A stretch of 64,000 nt of DNA from Saprospiraceae bacterium (GTDB taxonomy: Bacteria > Bacteroidota > Bacteroidia > Chitinophagales > Saprospiraceae). The notes under the pieces were generated by a model. The model searched no databases and was not told the origin of the DNA. It was given only the letters and a program-made list of their open reading frames with translations. Below, piece by piece: positions 14,217-55,609 of this stretch (position 1 is the first letter of the stretch; each line of letters starts with the position of its first letter). Made by a program: the position numbers and the translations under genes. The stretch spans positions 1 through 64,000 of the forward strand of contig JAHDGJ010000004.1 of assembly GCA_020627705.1 (NCBI GenBank). The letters are read 5' to 3'.

Positions 14217-17174
14217 ATGAAAAAGCTAAGTACTTTACTCAGTTTCTTTGCCTTTATGGTTCTTGCTTTGAGTTCTACTGCTCAAAGATCAGTTTCAGGA
14301 GTTGTTACTGACGGATCTAATGGAGAAGCCTTAATTGGTGCAACCGTTGTGGCATTAGGAACAGATGTCGGTACCATTACCGACATTGATGGAAGCTATA
14401 CGCTATCTCTCCCCGCTGGAGTGGATGCGCTAGTTTTCTCCTACACAGGATACCAAAGCCAAACCATTACAGCTACTGGTGATGTTGTGAATGCCGCCTT
14501 GAGTGCAGGACAACTCATCAACGAAGTCGTTGTTGTCGGATATGGTACGGTGAGAAAACGTGACCTTACCGGTTCTGTTGCTTCTTTGAAAGAAGAGGAT
14601 TTTAACAAAGGTTTGGTTATTTCCTCGGATCAATTATTACAAGGTAGAGTTCCAGGTGTGAACATTGTGAACAACAGTGGTCAACCTGGTGGTCAAGCAA
14701 CAGTTAAAATTAGAGGTAATAACTCTATCAGATCTGGAGCTGATCCATTGTATGTTGTGGATGGGATTCCATTGGATGGAAGAACCCCCAAAGCATCTTT
14801 ATTGTCAACGGACATAGGATCAATTGAAAATTCAAATCCTTTGAACTTCTTAAACCCTTCTGACATTGCTTCTATTGAAGTATTGAAAGATGCATCTTCT
14901 GCAGCGATCTATGGTTCGAGAGCTTCTAATGGTGTAATTCTAATCACGACCAAAAAAGCTAGAGAAGGTAAAACAGACGTAAGTTTTGGAGCAAACTTTG
15001 GAACAAGTTCTTTATTAAAGAAGTATGATGTGCTTTCAGGTGATGAATATCGCTCTGCGCTTTCTGCTTATGGACTAACGAGTGGAGACGGAGGAGGTTC
15101 TGTTGATGCATTTGATGAAATCTTAAGAACTGGTGCCACGCAGAACTATAACTTATCAATAGGTGTAGGGGGTGAAAATTCAAGAACAAGATTTTCTGCA
15201 AACTATACCAATGTTGACGGTATTGTTAAAGAATCAGGTCTGAAGAGATATTCAGGCTCCATTAATTCTCAATACAAATTCTTGGATGGTAAAGCTGGAG
15301 CGGATGTATTCATGGTAGCTTCGCATACTGGAGAGGACATTTCTCCGATTTCTACCAATGCAGGATTTACTGGAAACTTAGTAGGGCAAGCGTTGCAATG
15401 GAATCCAACTATTCCATTAATGACGGATGGCGAGTTTACTACTGGTTTAAACAACGCAGGTGTAGGTGCAACTACAATTAACCCTTTACAATTGTTGGAT
15501 GCGCATTCTGAGAAAGCGCAAACCACAGTGATATTAGGAAGTATTTCGCCTTACTACAACATTACTGATAACCTACAGTATAGATATAGATTGGGTGTTA
15601 ATTATGGTACGGGTACCACAAGAGGATCAATGTCAAAAGATATAAATGTGCAAGGAATTGAAGGTTTAGGTTTTGCCGGATTATCAAACAATACCCTGTT
15701 AACTACATTACATGCTCATACCTTAAACTTTAACACTGATATTAATGACAACATCAGCTTAAACCTTTTAGGTGGATATGAGTACCAAAAGTTTGATTTC
15801 AAAGGTTTTGGATTTGGAGGATTTGGATTTGATGATACCATAGATGGCTTTGATTTATCAAATGCTCTTCAAAACTCTAACAATGACAACAGAGTTGTAT
15901 TCTCATTTGCAGATCCAATTGTGGAGCTACAATCTTATTTCGCAAGAGCTACTTTCGGAATAGGTGAAAGATTTGATGTTACTGCAACAGTTAGAGCAGA
16001 TGGTTCTACAAAGTTTGGAGAAAACAACAAATATGGTGTATTCCCATCTCTTGCAGCTAGATGGAACCTTATTAACGAGAGTTTCATGGAAAACAGCTCA
16101 GCTTTCGATGATTTAGCATTGAGAGTTGGTTGGGGTGTTACTGGTAATCAAGAATTCCCAGCAGGTTCGGCGATCAATAGATTTGGTTTGAATGGAAACA
16201 ATGGTATTTCTCAAGAAAACATTGGTAACCCAGACCTTCAATGGGAAGAGTCAAGCACCTTCAATATTGGATTAGACTTTGCGATTTTAGATTATAAAGT
16301 TTCTGGTACTGTAGAGTATTATAACAGAGTGACTAGTAATCTCTTATTGGATCCATTCGTACAGGAGCCTGGCCCACCGATTAGAGCTTGGAAAAACATT
16401 GATGGCGAGTTGGTAAATACAGGTGTAGAACTTGGTTTAAATATTTTCGCTGTTGATGCTGAAAGTGTGAAAGTAAATGTTGGGATCAACGCTGCTTTCC
16501 TCAACAACGAATTGAGAGACTATACTGGACCAGACATCCTAACTGGAAATCTTTTCGGTCAAGGATCTACTGGAGCCTTCGTTCAAAAACATGTAAACGG
16601 AGAACCTTTAAATACATTCTTTGTTAGAGATTATCAAGGATTAGACGAAAACGGAAATAGTGTTTATGCTAACGATGGAGAGCCTGTAGCATTTGGTGAT
16701 CCGAACGCGGACATAATCTTAGGTTTTAACATCAATGCTGATTTTGGAAAACTAAGTATCGGTACAAACTGGAATGGTGCTTTCGGGCATATGTTGTATA
16801 ACAACACTTCAATGAGTGTGATTCCTATCGGTAACCTTGGTAACAGAAACGTTGACGCTGCATTGATTGGTTCTGGTAGTTCTTTAGAAAGTACTGCAAA
16901 CCCTATTGCGTCGTCTTCAAGATATCTTGAATCAGGTGATTTCGTTAAATTGGCAAATGCAACGGCGTCATATGCTTTAGGTGATGTAAGTTCATTTAAA
17001 GACGTTAGAATTTCGTTGACAGGTCAAAATTTATTAATTCTTACAGATTACTCTGGATTTGATCCTGAGATAAACACTGTAAATCTTAGAAATGGTATTC
17101 CTTCATCAGGTATCGAATATATTCCATACCCAAGTGCAAGAACCATTTTATTGGGTGTAACTGCTTCATTCTAA
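14217..17174 (+). CDS. SusC/RagA-type TonB-linked outer-membrane glycan transporter (locus 1)
   Basis: A 985-residue protein with a signal peptide (cleaved near LSSTAQ), a carboxypeptidase-regulatory-like beta-sandwich at about 22-105 (VSGVVTDGSNGEALIGATV), the SusC plug motif VVVVGYGTVRKRDLTGSV, PLYVVDGIPLDG, VLKDASSAAIYGSRASNGVI, and a long C-terminal beta-barrel with the terminal aromatic LLGVTASF. It is the TonB-dependent channel that imports oligosaccharides with the SusD lipoprotein encoded 11 bases downstream. It diverges from lacI, with candidate operator and leader structures between them. The enzymes that follow suggest that the cargo is an alpha-glucose-containing oligosaccharide. 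Confidence 0.96.
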   Translation: MKKLSTLLSFFAFMVLALSSTAQRSVSGVVTDGSNGEALIGATVVALGTDVGTITDIDGSYTLSLPAGVDALVFSYTGYQSQTITATGDVVNAALSAGQLINEVVVVGYGTVRKRDLTGSVASLKEEDFNKGLVISSDQLLQGRVPGVNIVNNSGQPGGQATVKIRGNNSIRSGADPLYVVDGIPLDGRTPKASLLSTDIGSIENSNPLNFLNPSDIASIEVLKDASSAAIYGSRASNGVILITTKKAREGKTDVSFGANFGTSSLLKKYDVLSGDEYRSALSAYGLTSGDGGGSVDAFDEILRTGATQNYNLSIGVGGENSRTRFSANYTNVDGIVKESGLKRYSGSINSQYKFLDGKAGADVFMVASHTGEDISPISTNAGFTGNLVGQALQWNPTIPLMTDGEFTTGLNNAGVGATTINPLQLLDAHSEKAQTTVILGSISPYYNITDNLQYRYRLGVNYGTGTTRGSMSKDINVQGIEGLGFAGLSNNTLLTTLHAHTLNFNTDINDNISLNLLGGYEYQKFDFKGFGFGGFGFDDTIDGFDLSNALQNSNNDNRVVFSFADPIVELQSYFARATFGIGERFDVTATVRADGSTKFGENNKYGVFPSLAARWNLINESFMENSSAFDDLALRVGWGVTGNQEFPAGSAINRFGLNGNNGISQENIGNPDLQWEESSTFNIGLDFAILDYKVSGTVEYYNRVTSNLLLDPFVQEPGPPIRAWKNIDGELVNTGVELGLNIFAVDAESVKVNVGINAAFLNNELRDYTGPDILTGNLFGQGSTGAFVQKHVNGEPLNTFFVRDYQGLDENGNSVYANDGEPVAFGDPNADIILGFNINADFGKLSIGTNWNGAFGHMLYNNTSMSVIPIGNLGNRNVDAALIGSGSSLESTANPIASSSRYLESGDFVKLANATASYALGDVSSFKDVRISLTGQNLLILTDYSGFDPEINTVNLRNGIPSSGIEYIPYPSARTILLGVTASF

Positions 17175-17185
17175 AATTGAATACA

Positions 17186-18679
17186 ATGAAAAAATATTTT
17201 TATTTATTTCTAATGATTTTTGCCCTTGGTGCATGTACTAATTTGGAAGAAGAATTAAGAGAAGATCTTCCAGAAGGTGAAACACCTGATCCAGCGGCAT
17301 TGTTAGGAAGTGCGTATAACTCTATGAGACTGCCTTATCAAGATCAATCAAGATTTTGGGCTGCTCAAGAGCATACTGGTGATTCTGCGTTAGGACCCAC
17401 AAGAGGACCTGACTGGGATGACAATGGTATTTGGAGATCGCTACATGCGCATACTTGGAATGCAGATCATGCATTCTTGGGAAGTACATTTAGTGAATTA
17501 CTTCAAATTGTTTTTGCTACATCTAATTTATTAGAGTTTAATCCTGATGCACAAACTGCGGCAGAATCACGTTTGATTCGTGCCTTTGTTGTGAATTCAG
17601 TATTGGACGGATGGGGACAAGTTCCTTACAGACAAGATGGAACTTCTTTATTGGAAGATGCCTCTGTCCTTCAACCAGCTGAAGCTGTAGATTTAATCGT
17701 TTCTGAAGTCGATGCGATTTTGTCAGACTTACCTGATGGACCCACAAATAGAGCAAATAAAGACGCTGCAAGAGTTTTAAAAATGAAAACGCTTTTAAAC
17801 AAAGGAATGTACTTAAATAGAGAGAGTCCATCTTTTGAAAATGCGGATTTGCAACAAGTAGTTGCGCTTGCTGATGAAATCATCAATAGCGGCAAATACT
17901 CTGTGACTACTGATTACTTCGGAAACTTTGCTCCGAATAACGATCAAATTTCTACTGAAAACATCTGGACTGCCGAAAACATTGGAGGTTCAAACTCAGG
18001 AAACGTTAGATCAAGATGGTTCTGTACGTTACACTACAACCAGAATCCATCTGGATGGAATGGTTTTGCTACCCTAGGATCTTTTTATGATTCTTTTGAG
18101 GCTGATGACATTAGATTAGGTGGAGATTATCCTGGTCAAACTGACGTATCCGGAATTAAAACTGGTTTATTAATTGGACAACAGTTTGATCAAGACGGAA
18201 ATGCGTTACAAGACAGACAAGGAAATCCATTGGCTTTTACCAAAGAGGTAGCCCTTTCTGAAAGTGGATCTAATTTGGAGGTAACTGGTATTAGAGTAAT
18301 AAAGTACCCTATTGATTACAACAGCGGTGACAACGTTGACAACGATTATGTATACTACAGATTTGCTGATGTGTGGTTAATGAAAGCTGAAGCAATGATG
18401 AGAATGGGTGACACTGCAGGTGCCTTAGATATGGTTAACACATTGAGAGCATCAAGAGGAGTTGGTGATTTATCTTCTTTGGATGAAGCTACTATGCTTG
18501 CAGAAAGAGGAAGAGAATTTTACTGGGAAGGACATAGAAGAACTGATCTTCTAAGATTTGGAAGATTCCTAGATGCATGGGAAAACAAACCTGCATCAGG
18601 AACAGAAAGATTATTGTTCCCAATACCAGCAGCTTCATTAGCGTCTAACCCTAATTTAGTTCAAAATCCTGGATATTAA
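17186..18679 (+). CDS. SusD/RagB-type glycan-binding lipoprotein (locus 1)
   Basis: A 497-residue outer-membrane lipoprotein that caps the SusC channel and captures the glycan. I start it at the ATG at 17186 rather than an in-frame TTG nine bases earlier, because this gives a clean lipoprotein signal (MKKYFYLFLMIFALGACTN, Cys17) followed by the acidic surface-export residues. The SusD TPR-type helices are evident (RLIRAFVVNSVLDGWGQVPY, DAARVLKMKTLLNKGMYLN), and the C-terminal RagB signature reads FYWEGHRRTDLLRFGRF ... LLFPIPAASLASNPNLVQNPGY. A terminator follows it, so transcripts ending here would favour SusCD over the downstream genes. Confidence 0.95.
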   Translation: MKKYFYLFLMIFALGACTNLEEELREDLPEGETPDPAALLGSAYNSMRLPYQDQSRFWAAQEHTGDSALGPTRGPDWDDNGIWRSLHAHTWNADHAFLGSTFSELLQIVFATSNLLEFNPDAQTAAESRLIRAFVVNSVLDGWGQVPYRQDGTSLLEDASVLQPAEAVDLIVSEVDAILSDLPDGPTNRANKDAARVLKMKTLLNKGMYLNRESPSFENADLQQVVALADEIINSGKYSVTTDYFGNFAPNNDQISTENIWTAENIGGSNSGNVRSRWFCTLHYNQNPSGWNGFATLGSFYDSFEADDIRLGGDYPGQTDVSGIKTGLLIGQQFDQDGNALQDRQGNPLAFTKEVALSESGSNLEVTGIRVIKYPIDYNSGDNVDNDYVYYRFADVWLMKAEAMMRMGDTAGALDMVNTLRASRGVGDLSSLDEATMLAERGREFYWEGHRRTDLLRFGRFLDAWENKPASGTERLLFPIPAASLASNPNLVQNPGY

Positions 18680-18760: not shown

Positions 18761-21700
18761 ATGAACCTATTTCAAGGAAATATCTTTCGAAATCTTCTTC
18801 TCTTATCGGTCCTTTTTTCTAGTTGTGGTGAGGATATTTCAAACTCTGAACCGCTCTTCACCTCTTTGCCTTCTAGTGCAACACAACTTAGCTTTAGCAA
18901 CAGCTTACCCATTGAGTTAGACCTCAATATTTTCAATTACATGTATTATTACAATGGTTCTGGTCTTGCCGTAGGCGACCTTAACAATGATGGTTGGACG
19001 GACATTATTTTTGGTTCAAACCTTCAGTCAGAAAAAATCTACTTAAACAAAGGCGGGTTAACTTTTGAAGACATTTCGTCTGAGGTAAATGTTGATGGAG
19101 GACCCAAGAGTTGGACCAATGGAATAGCTCTCGCAGATGTGAATGGCGATGGTATGTTGGATATTTATTTGGCCCAAGTCGGAACACACCGAAGCTTAGA
19201 TTGCCGCAACAAATTATTTATCTGTACAGGAATCGACGAAAAAGGCTTGCCATCGTATAAAGAACGGGCAAAAAAATATGGCCTTGACTTCAAGGGCTTC
19301 AGTACTCAAGCTGGATTTTTTGATTACGATCGAGACGGGGATTTGGACATGTTCTTAATGAATCATTCGTTACATAACAATGGCACTTTTGGTCAACGAA
19401 AAGAGTTTGCAAAAACCTACGACCCAATATCTGGTGATCGACTTTACAGAAATGATGGGGAAACATTTACGGATGTAACCAAAGAATCTGGAATAGAAAG
19501 TAGTGTTATCGGCTACGGCTTAGGATTGGCTTTTGGAGATTTTAATAATGATGGTTTTGCTGATATATATATCGGCAATGACTTTCATGAAAACGATTAC
19601 TTATACATCAATCAACAAGATGGAACTTTCAAAGACTCATTGACAGCAAAAATCAAGCATACCAGCAGATTTTCTATGGGCGTTGATATCGCGGATATAA
19701 ATCAAGATGGCTTTGATGATATTATATCCTTAGATATGCTTCCAGAAGATCCAAAAATTCTAAAAGCTTCAGAAGGTGAAGATGCTTTAGATATATTCAA
19801 CTTTAAATTAGGCTACGGATACAATCACCAATATGCAAGAAATGCGTTACAAATCAATCAAAATGGAAACTACTTCAAAGAAATAGCCGCCTACGCAAAT
19901 GTGCATGCCACGGATTGGTCTTGGTCTCCCCTCTTGTTTGATTTTGACATGGATGGCAAAAAAGATTTATTTATTACCAATGGAATTCCAAAACGAATGA
20001 ATGACATTGATTATATAAATTTCATTTCGGGAAATGACATTCAATACAAAATCCAATTTGACCAACTCGAAGAAAAAGATTTATCCGCCTTAGATAAAAT
20101 CCCAGAAATAAAACTCAACAACAAATTCTTCCTTCAAGGAGAAGACTTGCAATTTGAAGACCTAAATAATCAAATTAAAAATATTTCACCAAGTTATTCC
20201 AACAGTGCAGCCTTTGCAGATTTTGATAATGATGGAGATTATGATCTTGTCGTAAACAACATTAATGATGAAGCCATGTTCTACCGAAACAACTCGAAGG
20301 CTTCTTCTTTAAAAATCGCACTCAACGGGGTTGCGCAAAATACTTCAAACTTAGGGACATTGATACAGGCTTATTATGACGACAAAATCGTCACCCATAG
20401 TACGCATGCTACAAGAGGCTTTCAATCTTCAATGATCAATCAAGTCTTAATACCGAAAAAGGATTTAACCAAACTACTGATCGTTTGGCCAACCGGCGAA
20501 ACCCAAAACATTGAATACGAAGGACAGGACAGTTTGGAAGTGTTTTTTAGTCCCAATCAAATGTTTACTAAAGCCAATCGCTCCAACAAAATCAATGCAC
20601 AACAACTAGTTCCAGAGCTGCAACATAAGCATAAAGAAAACCCATTTGTAGAATTTAATCGTGAACCGCTCATCCCTTTTTCTACCTCCTCCGATGGGCC
20701 AGCCTTAGCTGTAGGCGACGTAAACAACGACGGACTTGAAGACTTTTTCATTGGATCCTCCAAAAGGAAAAGAAACGCATTATACATTCAAAAACAGAAT
20801 GGTTCTTTTGATAAAACCTCGTTGATTGGTGTGGAGACCGATAGTATCTATGAAGAAGTCGATGCCCAATTTGTAGACATTGACAATGACAATGATCTGG
20901 ACTTGGTGGTTGCTACGGGAGGGAACGAATACAAACTAAACAGTACGTACACTCAGCCTTTACTTTATCTAAACAACAATGGTATTCTCACAAAAAGCAC
21001 AGAGGCTTTTGAAGGTATACACATTACCGCTTCTTGCTTGGCATTTCATGACATAGACAATGATGGAGATCTAGATCTTTTTATAGGGGCTCGAGCAGAG
21101 CCTAGAAAATATGGTGTTGTACCACAAAGTGTGCTTCTCGAAAATAACGGAGAAGGAATATTCAAAAATGTGTCAGATCAATGGCTAGAAGACGCAACCC
21201 TCGGTTTTATAAGAGACGCCAAATGGGCGGACATAGATGGTGATAAAAAAGAAGAATTAATTCTTGCAAAAGAATGGGCACCTATTGAAGTATTACAACT
21301 CGGAGATAAAAGCCTCGAAGCAAAGAACATAAACAACTTATCAGGATGGTGGAATCATTTGGACCTTATAGACATAGATAATGATGGTGACTTAGATCTT
21401 TTCGCCGGAAATCTTGGGACTAATTCAAGGCTTAAAGCAACAGAAAAAGAAAAGGTCAAAATGTATTTCAATGATTTTGATGGCAATGGTACTAGCGAAC
21501 AGATACTCAGCTATTATGTCAAAGGACGCGAATTGCCATTCAGTAATCTCATGGAATTACAAAAGCAAATTCCATCGCTGAAGAAGAAATATATATACGC
21601 CAAAGATTTTTCAGAGGCGAGCATACACCAATTGTTTGGAAAAGATAAGATTAAAAATGCCGTAGTCTTTGAGGCAGATCATTTAGAAAACACGCTATTT

Positions 21701-22042
21701 ATAAACGATGGCAGTGGAAATTTTTCTATTAAAGAGTTGCCCTATGAAACGCAATGGACTTCTTACTATAGCTCTGCCATTGAAGATTTAAATCAGGATG
21801 GCAAACCGGATATCATATTAGGAGGAAACTATCACTATTGCAATGTTCAAATGGGCAGATACGATGCTGATAATGGTTCAATACTTCTTTCGAATGCAGC
21901 AGGTGGTTTTGATTTTGTCAACATTGGTGGTGCGCTAATACAAGGAGAGGTTAGAAACATTCGCCCCATTGAAATCAACTCTTCACGCGCTTTTATCTAC
22001 GCTCAGAATAACGATAGGCTAAAAATCTTACAGTTTGAATAA
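18761..22042 (+). CDS. VCBS/FG-GAP - UnbV - VCBS surface lipoprotein (locus 1, first copy)
   Basis: A 1093-residue lipoprotein (lipobox Cys22 in LFSSCGED, acidic export residues after it). It has an N-terminal FG-GAP/VCBS propeller region with many calcium-type loops (DLNNDGWTDI, DYDRDGDLDM, DINQDGFDDI), an ASPIC/UnbV domain at about 516-595 (ATRGFQSSMINQVL, LLIVWPTGETQNIE), and a second VCBS region to the end (DIDNDNDLDLVVATGG, DIDNDGDLDLFAGN). The function is not established. Position after SusCD, surface export and calcium propellers suggest glycan binding or substrate presentation in place of SusE/F, but this is inference. Its stop overlaps the next gene by eight bases. Confidence 0.88.
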   Translation: MNLFQGNIFRNLLLLSVLFSSCGEDISNSEPLFTSLPSSATQLSFSNSLPIELDLNIFNYMYYYNGSGLAVGDLNNDGWTDIIFGSNLQSEKIYLNKGGLTFEDISSEVNVDGGPKSWTNGIALADVNGDGMLDIYLAQVGTHRSLDCRNKLFICTGIDEKGLPSYKERAKKYGLDFKGFSTQAGFFDYDRDGDLDMFLMNHSLHNNGTFGQRKEFAKTYDPISGDRLYRNDGETFTDVTKESGIESSVIGYGLGLAFGDFNNDGFADIYIGNDFHENDYLYINQQDGTFKDSLTAKIKHTSRFSMGVDIADINQDGFDDIISLDMLPEDPKILKASEGEDALDIFNFKLGYGYNHQYARNALQINQNGNYFKEIAAYANVHATDWSWSPLLFDFDMDGKKDLFITNGIPKRMNDIDYINFISGNDIQYKIQFDQLEEKDLSALDKIPEIKLNNKFFLQGEDLQFEDLNNQIKNISPSYSNSAAFADFDNDGDYDLVVNNINDEAMFYRNNSKASSLKIALNGVAQNTSNLGTLIQAYYDDKIVTHSTHATRGFQSSMINQVLIPKKDLTKLLIVWPTGETQNIEYEGQDSLEVFFSPNQMFTKANRSNKINAQQLVPELQHKHKENPFVEFNREPLIPFSTSSDGPALAVGDVNNDGLEDFFIGSSKRKRNALYIQKQNGSFDKTSLIGVETDSIYEEVDAQFVDIDNDNDLDLVVATGGNEYKLNSTYTQPLLYLNNNGILTKSTEAFEGIHITASCLAFHDIDNDGDLDLFIGARAEPRKYGVVPQSVLLENNGEGIFKNVSDQWLEDATLGFIRDAKWADIDGDKKEELILAKEWAPIEVLQLGDKSLEAKNINNLSGWWNHLDLIDIDNDGDLDLFAGNLGTNSRLKATEKEKVKMYFNDFDGNGTSEQILSYYVKGRELPFSNLMELQKQIPSLKKKYIYAKDFSEASIHQLFGKDKIKNAVVFEADHLENTLFINDGSGNFSIKELPYETQWTSYYSSAIEDLNQDGKPDIILGGNYHYCNVQMGRYDADNGSILLSNAAGGFDFVNIGGALIQGEVRNIRPIEINSSRAFIYAQNNDRLKILQFE

Positions 22043-25000
22043 CCACGGTCGCATACCATTTGTTTGTCTTTTGCTATTCTTTTGTCTTTGCAGCTGTGAA
22101 AAAGACCATACCAAAAGTGAAGTGCATCTAGGCACAACATACTTTAATTTGATGGATTCTAAAGAAACAGGAATTGATTTTATCAATCACATTGAGCATG
22201 ATTCTGACTTTAACATATTTAGTTACCGAAATTTTTACAATGGAGCCGGAGTCTCCTTAGGAGACATCAACAACGATGGTTTAGTTGATATTTATTTGAG
22301 CTCAAATCTGGGGGCCAACAAGCTTTATCTCAATAAGGGAAATTTAAAATTTGAAGATATTTCGCAAAGTGCGGGTATTGAGCTTACCGAAAAATGGAGC
22401 ACAGGTACAACAATGATCGACATAAATGCCGATGGGCTCTTGGACATTTATGTATGTAATGCCGGTTTTAAAAAAGGAAGCGATCAAAAAAATGTTCTTT
22501 TTATTAACCAAGGCGATCTAAGCTTTGTAGATGAAGCGGAAAGATATGGTTTAGCGCAAAATGACTACAGCACCCAAGCTGCCTTCTTTGATTATGATAG
22601 AGATGGAGATTTAGATGTGTATCTTTTAAACAATAGCTTTATCCCTGTAAACACGCTCAATTATAGCAACAAAAGAGAATTACGTGCAGAAAATTGGCCA
22701 GTCAAAGACTTTTTAAAAGGCGGAGGCGATAAATTACTTCGCAATGACAATGGCCGATTTAAAGATATAAGTAAAGAAGCCGGAGTACTTGGGAGTCTGA
22801 TAGGTTTTGGGCTCGGTATCTCTGTAGGAGATGTAAACAACGACACCTGGCCAGATCTGTATGTTTGCAATGATTTCTTTGAAAGGGACTACCTATACAT
22901 CAACCAACAAAACGGGACTTTTAGCGAAGAACTTACGAATAGAATTAATCATTTATCCCACTCCTCAATGGGTGCCGATTTTGCAGACATCAATAATGAT
23001 GGCAGTTTAGAATTGTTCGTTACCGACATGCTCCCTGATGACGATTATCGATTGAAAACCACCACCACATTCGATAATATCAATTTGCGAAAACTCAAAG
23101 AAAAAAACGGCTTCTATAATCAGTTTATGCACAATACTCTTCAGTTAAATGATGGAGATGGGAAATTTAAAGAAATCTCTTTTTACGCTGATGTGGCAGC
23201 GTCTGATTGGAGTTGGGGTGCTTTAATGTTTGATGCCGACAACGATGGTTATAACGACATTTTTGTTTCAAACGGGATACTTCACGATGTTATTGACCAA
23301 GATTTCATAGATTTCTTTGCTAACGAAGTCATTCAAAAAATGGTTTTGACGGGATCTAAGGCTACTGTGGATTCTATAGTAAATCGAATGCCTTCAGTAG
23401 GTCTTCAAAACAAATTATTCCGCAACCTTGATGGAATGAAGTTTGAAGATGCGTCGAAATCTTCTGGTTTTAAATTAGAGAGCTTTTCTAATGGAGCTGC
23501 TTACGGCGATTTAGATAATGATGGAGACTTGGACTTGGTGGTAAATAATGTAAATTCTCAAGTGGATGTATTGGTAAACAACAGTTCGAATAACTTTATT
23601 GGTTTTGAATTAGCATTCGAAAGTCCAAACCACTTTGCCATAGGTGCTAAAGTAAACGTTTACTTAAATGATCAAATCATACGCCGAGAAATTCAAAGTG
23701 CTCGAGGATTTCAATCTTCGACAGATTTTAGACTGAGCCTTGGGATTGGCACGAACGAAAACATTGATGCTGTTGAGATCGTATGGCCCAATGGGACTGT
23801 TCAAAATATTGAGGACATCAAAGTAAACCAATATAATCGTATAGAATATGATCCATCGCAAAGCATTAAAAAAGAGTCCAAAAAATCCACACCCCTTCTT
23901 TCAGAAATAAAACACAATTTCGAAGCACATGTGGAAGATGAACATGTTGATTTTTACTACGAGCGAAACATCCCTACCCAGCTCTCTAAAGAAGGTCCAT
24001 GTTTGGCCAAAGGTGATTTTAATGGTGATGGCTTGGAAGACGTTTATATCGGAGCCTCAGCAGAAATAGCCCCCACACTTTATCAAAATACTGGCTCAGG
24101 ATACAAAAGCGTTCAACAAGAATTTTTTAAGAAATTTAAATCATACGAAGATACCTATGCTGTGTTTTTTGATTGCGATAGGGATGGGGATCTAGATTTG
24201 ATGGTAGGAAGCGGCGGCAACAATGTGACCTATGCGAAGCGCGCATTTGAAGACCGTTTATATGAAAACAAGAATGGAACTTTTGAGTATAAATTCAATG
24301 CAATTCCTCGCATTAGTTTAAATACGTCCATCATTTGTCCTTTTGATATTGACGAAGATGGTGATCTGGATTTATTCGTTGGTCAGCGGTCAATCCCTGG
24401 GGAATATGGATTAAGTCCAGGCAGTCACATATTGGTTAATAATGGAAGAGGAAATTTTCTTGACCTCACTAAAGAAATTATTCCAGAACTAAGTTTGGCG
24501 GGGATGATCACCGATGCCGTATGGGCGGATGTCCTACCTATGGAGGGCACCGAATTGATACTAATTGGTGAATGGATGGCTCCAAAAATTTTGTCTTTTG
24601 ATGGTGTAAAATTTAATATTATAGAATCTGCCCTAGACGCTCAAGCTGGCTGGTGGCAAAGCATTTATGCTGATGATATTGATGGAGACGGAGACATTGA
24701 TTTATTGTTGGGCAATCTTGGCGAAAACTTCTATCTAGAAGCTTCTGAAAACGATCCTTTGTTTTTATGGATAAATGACTTTGACCAAAATGGCAGTATA
24801 GAAAAACTTATCACCAAGAGAAAAGAGGGCAAAGATTATCCAGTATTTGTAAAACGTGACATGGTTGATCAACTTCCTTCCCTCAAAAAAGAAAATCTTT
24901 TGCATGCGCAATATGCCAATAAAGATATTACGGAGCTATTTAGCATGGACAAAGTAAAAAGCTCAACGGTCAAAAAAATCAACCAATTAAAATCAATGGT

Positions 25001-25358
25001 TGCATGGAACAATGGGACTGGCGATTTTATAATCGAAGAGCTTCCGGCACTAACACAAACTTCATCGATCAATTCTTTTTTACCCTTTGAAATTTCAGAT
25101 GGACCACATAGAGATTTTGTGATCGCGGGAAACAATGAATATCTACTTCCACAATTTTCTTCGATAGACGCTTGTAGAGGAAAGATTTTGCGCTATAATG
25201 AGAAGCAAAAATTCGTTGTGCTAGATTCCAAAGAAGCTGGTTTAGATCTGAATGGTGTCGCACGAGAATTGCATCAAATTGACTATGCCGGTAAGGCAAG
25301 TATTTTGGCACTCATCAATAACCATCCATTGAAACTTTATCAACCAAACAAACAGTAG
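22035..25358 (+). CDS. VCBS/FG-GAP - UnbV - VCBS surface lipoprotein (locus 1, second copy)
   Basis: A 1107-residue paralogue of the preceding protein with the same three-part order: VCBS propeller (DINNDGLVDIYLSSNLG, DYDRDGDLDVYLLNNS), UnbV at about 518-605 (SARGFQSSTDFRLSLGIG, VEIVWPNGTVQNIE), and a second VCBS region (DIDEDGDLDLFVGQRS, DIDGDGDIDLLLGNLG). The start is a TTG at 22035, eight bases inside the previous gene. The lipoprotein signal (RIPFVCLLLFFCLCSCEKD, Cys21) lies entirely upstream of the first ATG in frame, so a non-ATG start is needed for export. Translational coupling to the upstream gene is likely. The role is unknown, probably glycan handling at the cell surface. Confidence 0.87.
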   Translation: MNNHGRIPFVCLLLFFCLCSCEKDHTKSEVHLGTTYFNLMDSKETGIDFINHIEHDSDFNIFSYRNFYNGAGVSLGDINNDGLVDIYLSSNLGANKLYLNKGNLKFEDISQSAGIELTEKWSTGTTMIDINADGLLDIYVCNAGFKKGSDQKNVLFINQGDLSFVDEAERYGLAQNDYSTQAAFFDYDRDGDLDVYLLNNSFIPVNTLNYSNKRELRAENWPVKDFLKGGGDKLLRNDNGRFKDISKEAGVLGSLIGFGLGISVGDVNNDTWPDLYVCNDFFERDYLYINQQNGTFSEELTNRINHLSHSSMGADFADINNDGSLELFVTDMLPDDDYRLKTTTTFDNINLRKLKEKNGFYNQFMHNTLQLNDGDGKFKEISFYADVAASDWSWGALMFDADNDGYNDIFVSNGILHDVIDQDFIDFFANEVIQKMVLTGSKATVDSIVNRMPSVGLQNKLFRNLDGMKFEDASKSSGFKLESFSNGAAYGDLDNDGDLDLVVNNVNSQVDVLVNNSSNNFIGFELAFESPNHFAIGAKVNVYLNDQIIRREIQSARGFQSSTDFRLSLGIGTNENIDAVEIVWPNGTVQNIEDIKVNQYNRIEYDPSQSIKKESKKSTPLLSEIKHNFEAHVEDEHVDFYYERNIPTQLSKEGPCLAKGDFNGDGLEDVYIGASAEIAPTLYQNTGSGYKSVQQEFFKKFKSYEDTYAVFFDCDRDGDLDLMVGSGGNNVTYAKRAFEDRLYENKNGTFEYKFNAIPRISLNTSIICPFDIDEDGDLDLFVGQRSIPGEYGLSPGSHILVNNGRGNFLDLTKEIIPELSLAGMITDAVWADVLPMEGTELILIGEWMAPKILSFDGVKFNIIESALDAQAGWWQSIYADDIDGDGDIDLLLGNLGENFYLEASENDPLFLWINDFDQNGSIEKLITKRKEGKDYPVFVKRDMVDQLPSLKKENLLHAQYANKDITELFSMDKVKSSTVKKINQLKSMVAWNNGTGDFIIEELPALTQTSSINSFLPFEISDGPHRDFVIAGNNEYLLPQFSSIDACRGKILRYNEKQKFVVLDSKEAGLDLNGVARELHQIDYAGKASILALINNHPLKLYQPNKQ

Positions 25359-25369
25359 CATAAATCATC

Positions 25370-26458
25370 ATGAAAAATGTGAAGCCTTTGAGACTTTTCC
25401 TTGGACTTATACTATGTACAAGTTTAATTTTTTCATGTGGCACTCCTTCCTCCGAAGATTCCAAAAAACAAGAATATTCAAAAGCCAAATTTGAACCGAA
25501 GGAAAATCAAACACTCCTTTTTATTGGACAAGAAATGGAAGCCATCGGTGGATTGGATGACTACAACGACGGATACCTTGATCATTTTGATAAACCTGCC
25601 GGTTTTACGATGTACACCAACATTGCTCCTGGAGATACTTCCTTCGGCTACGTCCAAGTGGGATTGGATGGCATATGGAGAGCGGACAACTGGGGTGACA
25701 GCCCTTCGTTCTTAGACAAGCAAATTAAATATCCAGATTTTGAACACATGGCACTTGCGGTTGGATTATCGATCGTCAACCACGAACAAAGAATCGCTGA
25801 CGGCGAACATGATGGACACATCTTTAAGCTCGGTGAGTACTATAAAAGCCTCGCACCACGTCCGGTCTTCTTACGGATAGGTTATGAATTTGATGGCGCA
25901 TGGAACCATTACGACAAGGAAGGATATAAAGGGGCCTTTAGAAGAATTCACGATACGTTTACTACACTAGGCGTAGACAATGTAGCCTTCGTTTGGCAAT
26001 CTACAGGCTGGGGCAGCAATTTTGATGAGCTGGGAGAATATTATCCAGGAGATCATTATGTGGACTGGTGCGGATATTCTCATTTTGTTTGGTACTACAG
26101 AGCGAAGCCCATGCTTGATTTTGCTGAATTTGTCGACAAACCAGTATTTATTGCGGAGGCCACTCCCATGATCACGAACAAAAATACTTCGTTAGATTTA
26201 GCTAAACTGGACGAAGCAAATTTAGCTTGGGATCAATGGTTTGAACCTTTCTTTCGAACCATTCATCAATACCCAAGAATCAAAGCCATCAGTTACATCA
26301 ACTGCAATTGGAAGACCCACCGCATGTGGTATGGCGAAACTCCTTTTGCTGCATTGATGCGCGACTGCATATCAATGATGAGATTAAAAACAAATGGAAG
26401 AAAGAAGTCTCAAACAAAAAATTCATTCATTTCAGCCCTAGGCTTTACAACGACCTAA
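25370..26458 (+). CDS. GH26-like glycoside hydrolase lipoprotein (locus 1)
   Basis: A 362-residue lipoprotein (lipobox Cys23 in LIFSCGTPSSEDS). The catalytic domain resembles clan GH-A family 26: FLRIGYEFDGAWNHY would place the acid/base at Glu173, YYPGDHYVDWCGYSHF is the GH26-type segment, and PVFIAEATPM would place the nucleophile at Glu263, a spacing of 90. Family 26 includes beta-mannanases, beta-1,3-xylanases and mixed-linkage beta-glucanases. The usual His before the acid/base Glu is Tyr here, so this is a divergent branch and its substrate cannot be stated. A paralogue lies in locus 2 at 42262-43560. It may be the only endo-acting surface enzyme of locus 1. Confidence 0.72.
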   Translation: MKNVKPLRLFLGLILCTSLIFSCGTPSSEDSKKQEYSKAKFEPKENQTLLFIGQEMEAIGGLDDYNDGYLDHFDKPAGFTMYTNIAPGDTSFGYVQVGLDGIWRADNWGDSPSFLDKQIKYPDFEHMALAVGLSIVNHEQRIADGEHDGHIFKLGEYYKSLAPRPVFLRIGYEFDGAWNHYDKEGYKGAFRRIHDTFTTLGVDNVAFVWQSTGWGSNFDELGEYYPGDHYVDWCGYSHFVWYYRAKPMLDFAEFVDKPVFIAEATPMITNKNTSLDLAKLDEANLAWDQWFEPFFRTIHQYPRIKAISYINCNWKTHRMWYGETPFAALMRDCISMMRLKTNGRKKSQTKNSFISALGFTTT

Positions 26459-26470
26459 ACAATTAAACCC

Positions 26471-28492
26471 ATGAGAATACTAATCACTTTCTTACTAGTA
26501 TCCTTAACCTGTTATATTATTGCTCAAGATGCATGGAATGTAAAAGCTGAAAACATCGACCCTAACAATTACTTTGGCGTAACTGTAGCCAACGGAGTTG
26601 TAGGGATTGTTTCGTCAGCCGATCCTTTGAAAATTGAAGATGTGGTACTAAACGGTACCTATGACTACTATCAAAGAGGTCGAGTAAGCAATATTCTAAA
26701 GACCTTCAATCATCTAAACATGAACTTAGATATTGATCGCAGAAGAATTGGTCGAAACGACATCCAAAACTATGCGCAAAACCTCAACATGAAGGAAGCA
26801 AGTTTGGAAACAAGTTTTGATGTTGGAAATAAGGCCAAGGTTAAAACTTCTATGATGGCACTAAGACATCTACCCTACACGGCTATGATTAATGTAGAAA
26901 TCACGGCGAAACAAAACATAGAAATCACTCCTATGTCGGTCATCGAAGCTCCCAATCATTTAAACGACGTGCGCAACTACTATGCAGAAATAGATCGACC
27001 ACATGTATTAATACCACTAATGACCTCTGTTGGACTTAGTCCATCTGGAAGAGTTAAGGTCGCCGCTTCCAACAGTTTTATTTTTGAAGAAGGCCATGGA
27101 AACGAGCCAAAGTTGATTCACGAAGACTGGGATTACAACATGCACCTAACCAAGTTTCATAAAAAGCTCAAAGCAGGACAGACCTATTCATTCGCCATTG
27201 TGGCATCCACTTGTTCTTCCGAACAATACGAAGACCCTCATAATGAAGCTGAACGACTAAGCATTTATGCCATGCTTGAAGGCAAGGAGCGCTTACTAAA
27301 AAGACATAAAGAAGCGTGGGAAGAATTATGGAAATCCAACGTTACGGTCGAAGGCGACGATCAAATCACTAGAGACATAAGATTTGCATTGTACCATTTA
27401 TATTCATTCGCTCGTGAGGGCACTTCATTTTCCTTATCGCCTATGGGACTTTCTGGTTTGGGTTATAATGGACATGTCTTTTGGGATACCGAGTTGTGGA
27501 TGTATCCTCCTCTATTGTTAATGCAACCAGAGATTGCCGAGTCCTTATTGGAATATCGCTTCGAACGATTAGAGGCCGCCAAACAAAATGCATTTGCTCA
27601 TGGCTATAAGGGGGCCATGTTTCCCTGGGAGTCTGCGGAAGATGGCTCGGAAGACACCCCCGTTTGGGCATTGACTGGACCCTTTGAACATCACATCACA
27701 GGATGTATTGGCTGGGCATTTTGGAAGTATTATGAAGTGACTCAAGATCAAGATTGGTTAAAAGAAAAAGGATATCCAGTACTTAAGGAAATTGCTGACT
27801 ATTGGGCAAGCCGAGTGGAACGTAACGGTCCAAACCAATATGACATCAACAATGTCGTTGCCGCAGACGAATGGGCCGAAAATGTGGACAACAATGCTTT
27901 CACAAATGCGGTAGCCATACTCTCGTTACGTTACGCAACCAAAGCAGCAAATGTTTTAGGTAGAACTGCTGATCCAGATTGGAATCACGTCGCTGACAAC
28001 ATTCCAATTTTAAATTTTAAAGATGGCGTTACCCGTGAGCATGCTACTTACGAAGGTGAAGAAATCAAACAAGCAGATGTAAATCTTTTGGCTTATCCAC
28101 TTGGATTGATTACTGATTTGGATCAAGTGGAGCAAGACCTCGAGTATTATGAAGAACGCATGTCCCCAACAGGACCTGCGATGGGTGCAGCAATCCTCTC
28201 TATTCTTTACAACCGTTTAGGTAAAGAAAAAAAAGCTGCAGAAGTTTTCGCTTATAGTTACAAACGAAACGAAGTCCCTCCCTTTGGAGTAATATCCGAA
28301 GCAGCAGGTGGAAGCAATCCTTACTTTGCTACAGGAGCCGGAGGTATGTTACAAGCTGTGCTTTCCGGTTTTGGCGGAATAGTGATTACCGAGAAAGGAG
28401 TAGATCAAATCGAATCCAGTATTCCTTCGTCTTGGCGTAAAATGACCATCACAGGTGTCGGCAAAGACAAACAAACTTTTGAAGTAAAATAA
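26471..28492 (+). CDS. GH65 family alpha-glucoside hydrolase, kojibiose-hydrolase-like
   Basis: A 673-residue protein with a signal peptide (MRILITFLLVSLTCYIIAQ), so it is periplasmic or outer-membrane-associated. GH65 features are LSPMGLSGLGYNGHVFWDTE, MFPWESAEDGSED and the acid-catalyst segment AADEWAENVDNNAFTNAVA with Glu467. Most bacterial GH65 enzymes are cytoplasmic phosphorylases. Here GVISEAAGGSNPYFATGAGG places Glu610 where an inverting hydrolase needs its general base. The spacing of the two glutamates (143) is close to what I recall for the kojibiose (alpha-1,2) hydrolase of Flavobacterium johnsoniae. I infer an inverting exo-alpha-glucosidase; kojibiose- or trehalose-type linkages are both possible. 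Confidence 0.82.
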   Translation: MRILITFLLVSLTCYIIAQDAWNVKAENIDPNNYFGVTVANGVVGIVSSADPLKIEDVVLNGTYDYYQRGRVSNILKTFNHLNMNLDIDRRRIGRNDIQNYAQNLNMKEASLETSFDVGNKAKVKTSMMALRHLPYTAMINVEITAKQNIEITPMSVIEAPNHLNDVRNYYAEIDRPHVLIPLMTSVGLSPSGRVKVAASNSFIFEEGHGNEPKLIHEDWDYNMHLTKFHKKLKAGQTYSFAIVASTCSSEQYEDPHNEAERLSIYAMLEGKERLLKRHKEAWEELWKSNVTVEGDDQITRDIRFALYHLYSFAREGTSFSLSPMGLSGLGYNGHVFWDTELWMYPPLLLMQPEIAESLLEYRFERLEAAKQNAFAHGYKGAMFPWESAEDGSEDTPVWALTGPFEHHITGCIGWAFWKYYEVTQDQDWLKEKGYPVLKEIADYWASRVERNGPNQYDINNVVAADEWAENVDNNAFTNAVAILSLRYATKAANVLGRTADPDWNHVADNIPILNFKDGVTREHATYEGEEIKQADVNLLAYPLGLITDLDQVEQDLEYYEERMSPTGPAMGAAILSILYNRLGKEKKAAEVFAYSYKRNEVPPFGVISEAAGGSNPYFATGAGGMLQAVLSGFGGIVITEKGVDQIESSIPSSWRKMTITGVGKDKQTFEVK

Positions 28493-28502
28493 AGCAGACT
28501 AC

Positions 28503-29735
28503 ATGTTGACTCCACAAGCCAGAATAAAAGCATCACTTTACATCAATTACTTTGTTTTCGCCATTCTGTTAAACAGTGTTGGCATAGTGATACTTAAAGT
28601 ACAAAAGCTGTATGGAGTCGACGAAGTTCAAGCTAGTGTCCTAGAGCTTTTTAAAGATTTGCCGATTGCTATTGTTTCGTTTCAGGTAGCTTCTTTTCTT
28701 CCTAGACTGGGATACAAAAAAGCCATGTTGATTGCCCTTGGTTTGGTAACCGCCTCTTGTTTGGGCATGTATTTTTTTGACAGCTTTAACACCACGAAGC
28801 TTCTCTTTATGACAGTAGGTGTTGCCTTTGCCTTAATCAAAGTTTCGGTTTATGCTTCTATAGGTTTGATTACGAAAAACGACAGTGAGCATAATAGTCT
28901 CATGAGTAGTATCGAGGGATTTTTTATGTTCGGAATCACCTTCGCCTATTTTCTTTTTCCCTTTTTCAATGTTGAAGGAACCATTGCTTGGCTGAATGCT
29001 TATTTGTTTATTGCAGGACTTTGCATTTTATCTTTTGCCTTTCTATGGTATGCCGATTTTGATAAAGAGGAGGAGATTCCAGGCACGGACTTAGCAGACG
29101 ATTTTGCCCAAATGCTAAAGTTGATGCTTCAGCTTATGGTTATCGTTTTTGTGTTAAGTGCTTTTTTATTTGTGATGATTGAACAAGGCATTATGACTTG
29201 GCTGCCAACTTTTAACGAAAGAGTACTTAAGATTCCTGAAAACATGGCCATCATGATGAGTAGCGTTTTGTTTATTTCTTTGGGACTTGGACGAATGTTA
29301 GCAGGCGTTTTAGTAAAGCGCATCCATTGGTTATGGATCTTAGTGACTTGCATTCTTCTCAGTATAGCCATGGTTTCCTTTGTACTTCCAAATGCATTAA
29401 ACACTGAATTTGCAGAAGTGAATTCTTGGCGAGACATCCCGTTAATCGGATACGCCTTCCCAATTGTCGGATTTTTTCTTGCGCCTATATACCCCCTCAT
29501 TAATTCAGTTATGCTCACCGCTTTGCCGAAAAAATTACATAGTCCAATGACAGGCTTGATTATTATTTTTTCTGCCTTGGGTGGCACCTTAGGTTCGAGG
29601 TTAATCGGATACTTATTTAAAAATATTGGAGCAGAGTCTGCCTTTGGCTACTTAGTGATTCCAATGCTTGTCTTGTTAGGAGCATTATTTATCCTCAATC
29701 ATCTTTCGAAGAAAAGTCCTTGGTCTACTACTTAA
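28503..29735 (+). CDS. MFS sugar transporter
   Basis: A 410-residue inner-membrane protein with about 12 hydrophobic segments in two halves separated by a charged central loop (WYADFDKEEEIPGTDLADD). It begins 10 bases after the GH65 gene and ends 2 bases before the trehalase start, so it belongs to the same operon. The order suggests uptake of a di- or oligosaccharide that GH37 and GH13 then split inside. The substrate cannot be assigned from sequence alone. Confidence 0.85.
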   Translation: MLTPQARIKASLYINYFVFAILLNSVGIVILKVQKLYGVDEVQASVLELFKDLPIAIVSFQVASFLPRLGYKKAMLIALGLVTASCLGMYFFDSFNTTKLLFMTVGVAFALIKVSVYASIGLITKNDSEHNSLMSSIEGFFMFGITFAYFLFPFFNVEGTIAWLNAYLFIAGLCILSFAFLWYADFDKEEEIPGTDLADDFAQMLKLMLQLMVIVFVLSAFLFVMIEQGIMTWLPTFNERVLKIPENMAIMMSSVLFISLGLGRMLAGVLVKRIHWLWILVTCILLSIAMVSFVLPNALNTEFAEVNSWRDIPLIGYAFPIVGFFLAPIYPLINSVMLTALPKKLHSPMTGLIIIFSALGGTLGSRLIGYLFKNIGAESAFGYLVIPMLVLLGALFILNHLSKKSPWSTT

Positions 29736-29737
29736 AT

Positions 29738-31201
29738 ATGGAATATCAAGAGATCATAAAAAAGTTACAATTGAGTGGAGCCATAGAAGATGGCAAAGCT
29801 ATTGTTGATGCCATTCCAAAAGTATCGCAAGAAGAATTAACTCAAGCATTTTTGGAAGTTGATATAGAGGACAAAGATTCCGTCCTATCCTTTTTTGATC
29901 AATACTTTTCCAAAGTAAGTAATGACGACAACCCATTTCAAACCAACCCAAATAATAATAGTTCCGAACATATCAAAGAGCTCTGGGACGTCTTAAAAAG
30001 AGAGAAAGATGTAGAAAAAGAAAACAGCACACTCATAGCCTTGCCCTTTCCGTACATCGTGCCTGGTGGAAGATTCAATGAAATTTATTACTGGGACAGC
30101 TTCTTTACTATGCAGGGCTTAAAGCATCATGACAGAATTGACATCATTGAAAACATGATTGAAAATTTTGCTTGGCTTATCGATCAACATGGTTACATCC
30201 CAAATGGCAATAGAAACTACTTCTTAGGTCGTTCACAACCTCCTTTCTTTCATCAAATGGTTTTACTCTTGGAAGAACTAAAAGGCGAAGGATATTTAAT
30301 CAAATACACAGAACAGCTTCGAAGAGAATATGAATTTTGGATGAGAGGCGGAAAGCGAAGAGCAGTGAAACTTAAAAAAGGATTTCTCAACAGGTACTTT
30401 GATGAAAACAGCACGCCACGTGAAGAAATGTACTTAGATGATGTTATGCTTTCTCAGGAAGTGTCTTTCGATCATCACCAATTGTACAAAGACATTAGAG
30501 CAGCTTGTGAATCCGGTTGGGATTTTAGTTCACGATGGTTTCACGACTTTAAGGAAATGAAAAAAATCAGAACGACTGATCTCGTTCCTGTAGATTTAAA
30601 TTGCCTCTTGTATGGTTTGGAGCAAACGCTTATCAAAGCTTACAAGCTGCTAGGAAAAACAGCAGATCAAGGATTGGTTTCTACCCTTTCGCAAAAACGC
30701 AAAGAACTCATACAACATTACTGTTGGAATGCATCTCAAGGCTTCTATTTTGACTATGACCACAAATTTGAGCAATCAAATCTTTCGTGGAATTTATCAG
30801 GAGCGTACCCATTGTATTTTGGTATTGCGACTCAAGAGCAAGCCAATCAATGCGCTGCGCATATTGAAAGTAAATTCTTAATGGAAGGTGGCTTGCAAAC
30901 CACCACAATAAACTCTGGGCAACAATGGGATGCACCAAATGGTTGGGCTCCTTTACAATGGATGACGGTTCAAGGATTACTTAAGTATGATCATACGGAA
31001 CTGGCAAGAGACATCATGCACCGTTGGACAAAGCTAAACGAAAAGGTATTTGAGAATACTGGGAAATTTGTTGAGAAATATAATGTGGTGGACACTTCCT
31101 TGGATGCCGGAGGTGGAGAGTATCCAGTACAAGATGGATTTGGCTGGAGCAATGGGGTCTATATTGATTTTAAACATTTATTAAACCTAAAGCAAGATTA
31201 G
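29738..31201 (+). CDS. GH37 trehalase, cytoplasmic
   Basis: A 487-residue family 37 enzyme that hydrolyses trehalose to two glucoses. Both family signatures are present: PGGRFNEIYYWDSFF (about 109-123) and QQWDAPNGWAPLQW (about 394-407). SGWDFSSRW supplies the catalytic Asp and GGGEYPVQDGFGWSNGV the catalytic Glu. I use the ATG at 29738; an upstream TTG in the MFS stop region would only add six residues. No signal peptide is seen, so it acts in the cytoplasm on imported sugar. Its stop abuts the GH13 start with no spacer. Confidence 0.93.
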   Translation: MEYQEIIKKLQLSGAIEDGKAIVDAIPKVSQEELTQAFLEVDIEDKDSVLSFFDQYFSKVSNDDNPFQTNPNNNSSEHIKELWDVLKREKDVEKENSTLIALPFPYIVPGGRFNEIYYWDSFFTMQGLKHHDRIDIIENMIENFAWLIDQHGYIPNGNRNYFLGRSQPPFFHQMVLLLEELKGEGYLIKYTEQLRREYEFWMRGGKRRAVKLKKGFLNRYFDENSTPREEMYLDDVMLSQEVSFDHHQLYKDIRAACESGWDFSSRWFHDFKEMKKIRTTDLVPVDLNCLLYGLEQTLIKAYKLLGKTADQGLVSTLSQKRKELIQHYCWNASQGFYFDYDHKFEQSNLSWNLSGAYPLYFGIATQEQANQCAAHIESKFLMEGGLQTTTINSGQQWDAPNGWAPLQWMTVQGLLKYDHTELARDIMHRWTKLNEKVFENTGKFVEKYNVVDTSLDAGGGEYPVQDGFGWSNGVYIDFKHLLNLKQD

Positions 31202-32848: not shown

Positions 32849-32879
32849 TCCTTTTATATTTGTTGTTCAATTTGGAGCA

Positions 32880-55199: not shown

Positions 55200-55609
55200 C
55201 TATTCGAAGTACGTAATGTTATCGATATAATAGCTACCTGGACAATTACCTTGAATAAGTATCCAAGGATATTCTATTCCTGACATGACTTCACCTTCTA
55301 AATTATAGGTCAGTTTTACCCATGCTCCAGGTTCAACATCCTGAAAGTATCCTGTAGAGAAATCTTCTTCAATTTGAAGTTTTAAAGACCCAGGCTCTTC
55401 AAAAAATACATCAATTTCAATTTTCTTGGCATTTTCGGTGACTACAGGAATTGAACGATTCGCATTTTCGCCAAACGGATCAGTTTGCGTCATTTTAAGT
55501 ACTTTACTAGAAGCATTAACAGCATTAGGCGCAGGGTTATCAACAACAGTAACATTTTGCCCCCAAGCATTCCAATCACCAACCTCTCCATCTTCAAAAT
55601 CACCTAAAA
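55200..55609 (-). repeat. Tandem module copy B of the binding lipoprotein
   Basis: Encodes the second of two ~135-residue modules (VLGDFEDGEVGDWNAWGQNV ... YYIDNITYFE). It is about 83 percent identical to copy A by hand alignment of the proteins, with the two starts about 434 bases apart. Confidence 0.8.

Follow-up and report, generated by a model that had tools for sequence, protein, structure and literature searches.

Introduction

The biology of the SusC/SusD (SusCD) transporters is known mainly from gut Bacteroides. The UnbV domain is known from a human cartilage protein, and animal CRTAC1, which carries it, is a secreted protein. The levan and dextran utilisomes are described as stable complexes of SusCD with a surface glycan-binding protein (SGBP) and glycoside hydrolase (GH) lipoproteins, and the same source models the starch system as more dynamic (PMC7618045). 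BtuG and XusB are described as seven-bladed propeller surface lipoproteins that work with TonB transporters (PMC10404256, PMC13142918). Here we analyse a 64,000-nucleotide stretch of a Saprospiraceae genome (the window; contig JAHDGJ010000004.1, positions 1 to 64,000), in which two large lipoproteins, A and B, are encoded behind a SusCD pair (locus 1), and a related lipoprotein, C, behind a second pair in a xylan locus. With modest confidence, we read A and B as members of a co-inherited pair of surface lipoproteins (classes R and P) that serves one SusCD lineage and stands in the slot that SusE/SusF fill in a sister branch. The initial annotation of the window had named such proteins a candidate new class of surface glycan-handling proteins. 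Among the openly licensed PubMed Central (PMC) papers searched none was found that joins UnbV/VCBS/FG-GAP propeller lipoproteins to SusD.

Gene order and lipoprotein classes

SusD sits between SusC and the propeller lipoprotein or lipoproteins in both window loci. Locus 1 runs on the forward strand in the order susC (14217-17174; TIGR04056, 605 bits, NCBIfam), susD (17177-18679; PF07980, 92.1 bits, cut-off 23.1), A (18761-22042, 1093 residues) and B (22035-25358, 1107 residues), followed by enzyme and transporter genes. The reading frames of A and B overlap by 8 bp. On the reverse strand of the xylan locus, C (56428-59748, 1106 residues) stands directly behind SusD (59856-61322; PF07980, 134.8 bits), itself next to a SusC (61326-63950; NCBIfam, the match extending to C8:64277). 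The initial annotation, which described two lipoproteins of about 1,100 residues behind susD and a third copy in the same place of the xylan locus, was accurate in this respect. It was also right that locus 1 has no SusE/F pair, as none was found there with Pfam; A, B and C themselves have no Pfam match to SusE PF14292 or SusF_SusE PF16411 at E ≤ 0.001.

A FastTree tree of 204 full-length relatives (from 234 family matches in loci, after members below 980 residues or 700 bits were dropped) has three classes: S (46 rows, with C), P (90 rows, with B) and R (68 rows, with A). Each class forms one side of a branch with a Shimodaira–Hasegawa-like approximate likelihood ratio (SH-aLRT) of at least 98 in a 45-row IQ-TREE subsample, drawn without L015 and for which the program warned of two long branches meeting, both from L038. 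On these trees, A and B belong to two old, co-inherited paralogue classes. A recent tandem duplication is ruled out by an identity of 37% between A and B, by their different clades and by the lack of any direct DNA repeat of at least 40 bases at the settings used.

The two classes keep company. P and R stand together in 51 of 60 tandem sets, compared with a mean of 31.6 (sd 3.5) in shuffles that ignore kinship, none of 5000 being as high. The order is P-R in 29 sets, P-P-R in 10, R-P-R in 7 and R-P, as in the window, in 3; the pair is therefore retained while its order changes. Genes outside tandems are S in 38 of 65 cases. Position behind SusD was tried as a class label and dropped, with 66 changes on the tree, while P, R and S are single clades; position labels are also clustered (shuffled mean 103.5 changes). 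When the tree is cut into 23 small clusters, pairs from the same cluster number 5 of 89 (8.0 in shuffles, with 334 of 2000 as low), which is not significantly rare, and the claim of pairing is therefore made at the P/R level only.

SusC lineage and SusE

The SusC tree contains 132 sequences, 59 of them linked to P/R, 18 to S and 55 others, the background being hand-picked rather than random and rows below 850 residues dropped. All but three of the P/R-linked SusCs (56/59) fall in one clade of 68 (confidence 100), and the P/R label changes 11 times on the tree compared with 43.4 in shuffles. Eleven unlabelled SusCs also lie inside this clade; six of these (L073, L087, L123, L134, L144, and L184) stem from loci whose family member is differently arranged or incomplete. 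The S-linked SusCs are outside the P/R clade in 17 of 18 cases and in several places, and the SusC of the xylan locus is likewise outside. The initial annotation had proposed an association with SusCD irrespective of substrate. This describes the S class, which occurs with several SusC lineages and often alone, and does not describe P/R, which go mainly with one SusC lineage.

Twelve of 21 genomes have SusE (PF14292), at 32 places in all. Of these places, 11 lie beside one of six SusCs. Two of the six SusCs were already in the P/R clade, and four more, fetched as a test, joined it, bringing the count to six of six and the clade to 72 rows. All six lie in an 8-row subclade (confidence 100) within the P/R clade. 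The P/R-linked and SusE-linked SusCs are also split from the S-linked and background SusCs in an IQ-TREE analysis of 41 rows, a sample from which six ‘background’ SusCs near a family member were left out and in which L031, L044, and L104 were not drawn. Since the SusE-linked SusCs form a subclade of the P/R SusC clade, we read P and R as taking the SusE/SusF slot in the sister branch. GH13 (Pfam) is present in four of the six SusE-linked loci (L185, L186, L187, and L190) and GH53 in L189 and L187, the latter having both; L188 lay outside the scan.

Predicted fold and conserved residues

FG-GAP_3 exceeds the Pfam cut-off in seven, eight and nine stretches of A, B and C, respectively. UnbV_ASPIC scores well above its cut-off in B (72.8 bits) and C (63.0 bits) and is degenerate in A, where it reaches 23.3 bits alone and 24.3 with neighbours (cut-off 23.4) and is unlisted at E ≤ 0.001. 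AlphaFold models were built for A and B from alignments restricted to relatives of 1050-1180 residues from L065-L144. The alignment for B comprised B, 61 of 68 P rows and 10 of 18 S rows (72 sequences) and gave a predicted local distance difference test score (pLDDT) of 92.0 and a predicted template modelling score (pTM) of 0.92; that for A comprised A and 49 of 50 R rows (50 sequences) and gave a pLDDT of 90.5 and a pTM of 0.91. The top Foldseek match of model B in the PDB is CRTAC1 (9etn, E 3.9e-28). With VIA-align, residues 34-607 of model B superimpose on 9etn with Z 39.6 over 455 residues (rmsd, root mean square deviation, 2.4 Å), and residues 30-598 of model A, UnbV included, with Z 36.8 over 454 residues; the rmsd of the N-terminal halves is 2.4-2.5 Å. 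The C-terminal propeller matches LGI1 EPTP first (Z 30.3 for B and 30.8 for A), with many unrelated propellers scoring close behind the top matches. The sequence search likewise places CRTAC1 first among the PDB relatives for both proteins. Because structure and sequence matches both give CRTAC1, the predicted plan of A and B is a CRTAC1 core (propeller and transthyretin-like UnbV) with an extra, different propeller. The domain order propeller–UnbV–propeller proposed in the initial annotation is retained; the plan is less symmetric than described there, the C-terminal half being another kind of propeller. From the positions of the loops, we count what are probably seven blades in each propeller.

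The lipobox cysteine is invariant in all nine full-length members from the same genome, and a lipobox-like cysteine is found within the first 60 residues in 190 of the 204 relatives (lenient pattern). An acidic residue at +2 to +6 is present in 133 of 204, which for surface exposure is suggestive at most. At least 93% identity over the 204 rows is seen at the calcium-loop aspartates and at W121, W392, S393 and W394 (B numbering). P and R are separated by five columns only (75% in each class), all in propeller 1: 66 N/Y, 181 H/Q, 200 N/H, 258 F/Y and 418 D/R. From the blade pattern, these columns appear to line the entrance of propeller 1. No P/R-specific insertion of four or more columns was found in the 204-row alignment.

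The near-invariant W121, W392, S393 and W394 lie outside the calcium loops, just before the inner strands of propeller 1, and could be taken to mark an active site. A and B would then be enzymes (lyase, dehydratase or similar) with the propeller pockets as active sites, P and R carrying out two steps. Among the structures matched by the second propeller is the propeller half of aldos-2-ulose dehydratase (4a7k; Z 26.5 for B and 28.7 for A), and an enzyme-like iodoperoxidase homologue recurs alongside. We consider this unlikely, although it is the strongest of the alternatives. Scores almost as high are reached by propellers with many unrelated functions, no catalytic motif was identified in A or B, and near-invariance across SusCDs of differing cargo suits a shared partner equally well. 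To our knowledge, CRTAC1, the closest fold, is not an enzyme.

Distribution and linkage to SusCD

At least 21 of 99 evenly drawn Bacteroidota genomes, that of the window included, have a match at E ≤ 1e-50, representing at least 17 of 59 genera, with up to seven candidates scored per genome. UnbV had no match in 14 control genomes, Bacteroides ihuae among them. In the 20 other genomes, 35 of 63 family places have a listed same-strand SusC no more than 12 kb away, where about four were expected; two of the 63 places (G037:C37 and G022:C82:12693) lie outside the fetched stretches and one (in L053) was missed by the picking of open reading frames. Same-strand linkage is seen in 17 of the 20 genomes. 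The first copy is mostly 1.6-2.0 kb behind SusC, a gap with room for a SusD. The SusC listing, for which up to 24 candidates per genome were scored, is incomplete: L045, L054, L060, and L064, first classed as unlinked, hold SusC/SusD.

A scan of named contigs found SusC/SusD in 66 of 80 loci; among the 58 loci with at least 15 kb of sequence, 55 have it. The 80 loci were retrieved regardless of the presence of SusC; they are the closest to B among at least 501 relatives and so lean to its class. They come from Flavobacteriia, Cytophagia, Saprospiria, Chitinophagia, Sphingobacteriia, Fodinibius and metagenome-assembled genomes (MAGs) labelled Gemmatimonadetes and Calditrichota. The enrichment beside susCD, for which the initial annotation had proposed a survey, is strong. 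SusC–SusD with family copies was observed in a Calditrichota MAG (L118), a Gemmatimonadetes MAG (L122) and Fodinibius (L130); the MAG labels could reflect contamination.

Linkage differs between the classes when scored as either gene anywhere in the retrieved stretch. Where the locus spans at least 15 kb, 72 of 74 P genes, 62 of 62 R genes and 24 of 42 S genes are accompanied by SusC/SusD. In the phylum draw together with the genome of the window (stretches up to 20 kb), the counts are 38 of 39 for P/R and 10 of 28 for S. The 18 of 28 S-class copies without SusCD, together with the similarity to integrin-alpha and CRTAC1, would fit a general role as surface scaffolds or calcium-dependent adhesins, the genes being mere passengers in polysaccharide utilisation loci. 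For A and B this is rather improbable: SusCD accompanies P and R almost without exception, in most cases from one SusC lineage, and the two are inherited as a pair.

Operon partners

The commonest neighbour of the family is a lipoprotein of about 450 residues homologous to vanadium haloperoxidases, found in 45 of 128 loci with a family match. In 21 genomes, 11 of 22 such genes are within 8 kb of a listed family member, compared with about 0.4 expected. The window copy (32796-34208, +; PAP2 fold, lipobox) matches PDB 4cit/4usz with E 1.2e-155, and its segments K..RP, SGH and SR..GGIH match 4cit in the alignment. 4USZ is the Zobellia iodoperoxidase, and an iodine-accumulating Arenibacter is described with at least five PAP2 homologues of it (PMC5064120). 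The frequency of this neighbour and its matches to 4cit could suggest that A and B form part of a surface redox or phosphatase system together with it (halide/vanadate chemistry), SusCD importing the product, which is the least probable of the readings considered, given that no more than 28 of 83 P/R runs and 10 of 41 S runs include the gene in the same direction, that 7 of 21 family-bearing genomes have no such gene at E ≤ 1e-20, and that several carrier genera are soil or freshwater bacteria, in which iodine chemistry is less expected.

A second lipoprotein family, of about 195 residues, is found in 22 loci (for example, L089:8417-9001 and L092:8429-8989), often between the first and second family copies. 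Three members scanned had no Pfam match over the cut-off, and the family was not seen among the clustered neighbours in the window. A protein of about 300 residues with a GyrI-like domain (two scanned) and a hydrophobic N-terminus was observed in L075:16884-17798 and 11 further loci, near the iodoperoxidase homologue or family copies.

With these iodoperoxidase and 195-residue families set aside, the scan covered 96 of the 135 neighbours in P/R runs and 72 of the 117 in S runs. The P/R runs gave MGH1-like (6), GyrI-like (6), GH13 (5), sodium:solute symporter (SSF, 5), glucoamylase (4), GH30 (4), major facilitator superfamily (MFS, 4), trehalase (3), GH65 (3) and GH127 (3). The S-run neighbours are diverse, with MFS (3), GH43 (3), GH92 (2) and sulfatase (2).

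The partners of A and B in locus 1 were assigned with Pfam. A LacI-type regulator (13015-14040, -) lies upstream of susC and divergent to it. Downstream of B, all on the forward strand, are a GH26-like lipoprotein (25370-26458; 26.4 bits, cut-off 20.2), GH65 (26471-28492), an MFS transporter (28503-29735), a GH37 trehalase (29720-31201), a GH13 alpha-amylase family enzyme (31202-32848), the iodoperoxidase homologue, an SSF symporter (34296-35969) and GH43 (36027-37688). The cargo of locus 1 is most likely an alpha-glucoside, because GH65, trehalase and GH13 stand in the same run.

Other family members in the genome

The genome of the window (G000; 3.72 Mb, 35 contigs) has 12 UnbV places and nine SusCs over the cut-off. 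There are nine full-length family members of 1075-1149 residues: A, B, C, two in L014 and one each in L015, L017, L019, and L020. Five of the nine (A, B, C, and those in L015 and L019) are in loci with a SusC; in L019 the gene behind SusC has no Pfam match to SusD. Four further SusC loci (L021-L024) have no propeller–UnbV–propeller member, and two short UnbV proteins have 744 and 753 residues. A tandem S-class pair was observed in L014:2946-9745 (minus strand, C13) with no SusCD in the 20-kb stretch, adjoining a PorP/SprF gene and long open frames.

L013:4415-8599 (minus strand, C17) encodes a fusion of a CRTAC1-like FG-GAP/UnbV core, a GH13 alpha-amylase and a type IX secretion system (T9SS) tail. 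It stands behind a SusCD whose SusC falls in the SusE-linked subclade of the P/R clade, which we count in favour of the role proposed below for the P/R pair. A widespread occurrence of the fusion was considered and rejected in a survey at E ≤ 1e-120 of the best four candidates per genome, with a 1463-residue frame in G232 left out. A CotH-kinase protein with a T9SS sorting tail was also observed in the window (7384-9015, +), and a CotH/lamin-tail protein is present in the SusCD locus L013.

Proposed role of the P/R pair

A number of observations weigh against P and R being a pair tied to one SusCD lineage in the place of SusE/SusF. Nine of the 60 tandem sets lack the combination (five PP, three SS and one PS), and several sets come from one genus or family. 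Three P/R-linked SusCs (L031, L044, and L104) are outside the clade and one S-linked SusC (L043) is inside it. On the SusC tree the S label is also more clustered than expected by chance, with 11 changes compared with 17.1 in shuffles. That none of the 32 SusE places is within 12 kb of a listed family member agrees with a replacement of SusE, yet is unremarkable alone because fewer than one was expected in any case. The comparison with SusE comprises six SusCs only, 20 places in G013, G022, G030, G034, and G046 being left out, and the SusE locus L192 has no SusC in its stretch. S-class genes are often found without SusCD (the 18 of 28 above), and G023 has two family members and no SusC at E ≤ 1e-80. 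The amylase fusion was matched at full length in only 1 of 149 genomes of the order, the genome of the window itself. GH30, GH127, GH1 and other enzymes also occur in P/R runs, and the cargo is therefore not always an alpha-glucan. Finally, the xylan locus holds, directly behind C, an SGBP-like lipoprotein of 420 residues (55200-56462, -; CBM4_9 over the cut-off, PKD sub-threshold). A general replacement of SGBPs is rejected for the S class on this ground, and because the two coexist the family cannot replace SGBPs everywhere. We propose that C, as an S-class copy, is a more loosely related protein that accompanies other SusCDs.

If P and R are indeed a co-inherited pair in the SusE/SusF slot, the N-terminal lipid would anchor them on the cell exterior, where they would sit on or beside the SusC/SusD bin and form a complex with it. 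The propeller faces would hold an oligosaccharide, or else SusD and surface enzymes. The substrate would be handed to SusD and then pulled in by TonB, with P and R replacing SusE/SusF. By analogy with the utilisomes, BtuG and XusB, P and R may act as outer subunits and keep cargo or partners in place above SusD.

A wider proposal, which we put forward tentatively, is that of a second starch-type SusCD architecture in environmental Bacteroidota and some neighbouring phyla, in which a fixed heteromeric pair of P and R (sometimes three copies) replaces SusE/SusF. The near-invariant face of propeller 1 would bind not the cargo, which varies, but a common partner such as SusD, loops of SusC or a member of the other class, and a handful of propeller-1 positions would tell P from R. 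Should P and R prove to be transporter subunits, environmental glycan uptake would in large part rely on an undescribed outer complex. The UnbV domain would gain a testable bacterial role and a vanadium-enzyme homologue would be tied to glycan uptake. P and R would add to a well-studied machine a widespread component with two closely paired members, which belongs to a known general kind and is unstudied in the openly licensed PMC papers searched.

Comparison with known systems

The Zobellia galactanivorans vanadium iodoperoxidase (4cit/4usz) is homologous to the window partner at 32796-34208, a neighbour of the propeller lipoproteins; the putative activity of the partner is assigned by homology only. 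With CRTAC1 (ASPIC; 9etn, UnbV_ASPIC), the predicted N-terminal half of A and B shares the propeller and the UnbV domain. A and B differ from it as bacterial lipoproteins with about 490 further residues that would form the second propeller.

Two SGBP criteria, a lipobox cysteine and a gene within a SusCD locus, are seen in A, B and C. Like SusE, SusF and the SGBPs, P and R are lipoproteins in the slot behind SusD, often paired and associated with the same SusC clade. Unlike SusE/SusF, A and B have a propeller–UnbV–propeller fold and 1,093-1,107 residues and are without PF14292 and PF16411, and their glycan binding is putative. As BtuG (BtuB–BtuG) and XusB (XusA–XusB) are described in the sources cited above, they resemble A and B as beta-propeller lipoproteins linked to a TonB-dependent transporter. 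BtuG is described as capping its transporter as SusD does; the loci of A and B have a SusD, so A and B do not count as lids in that sense. By the same descriptions BtuG and XusB are each a single seven-bladed propeller, whereas A and B have a double propeller with UnbV and form two classes.

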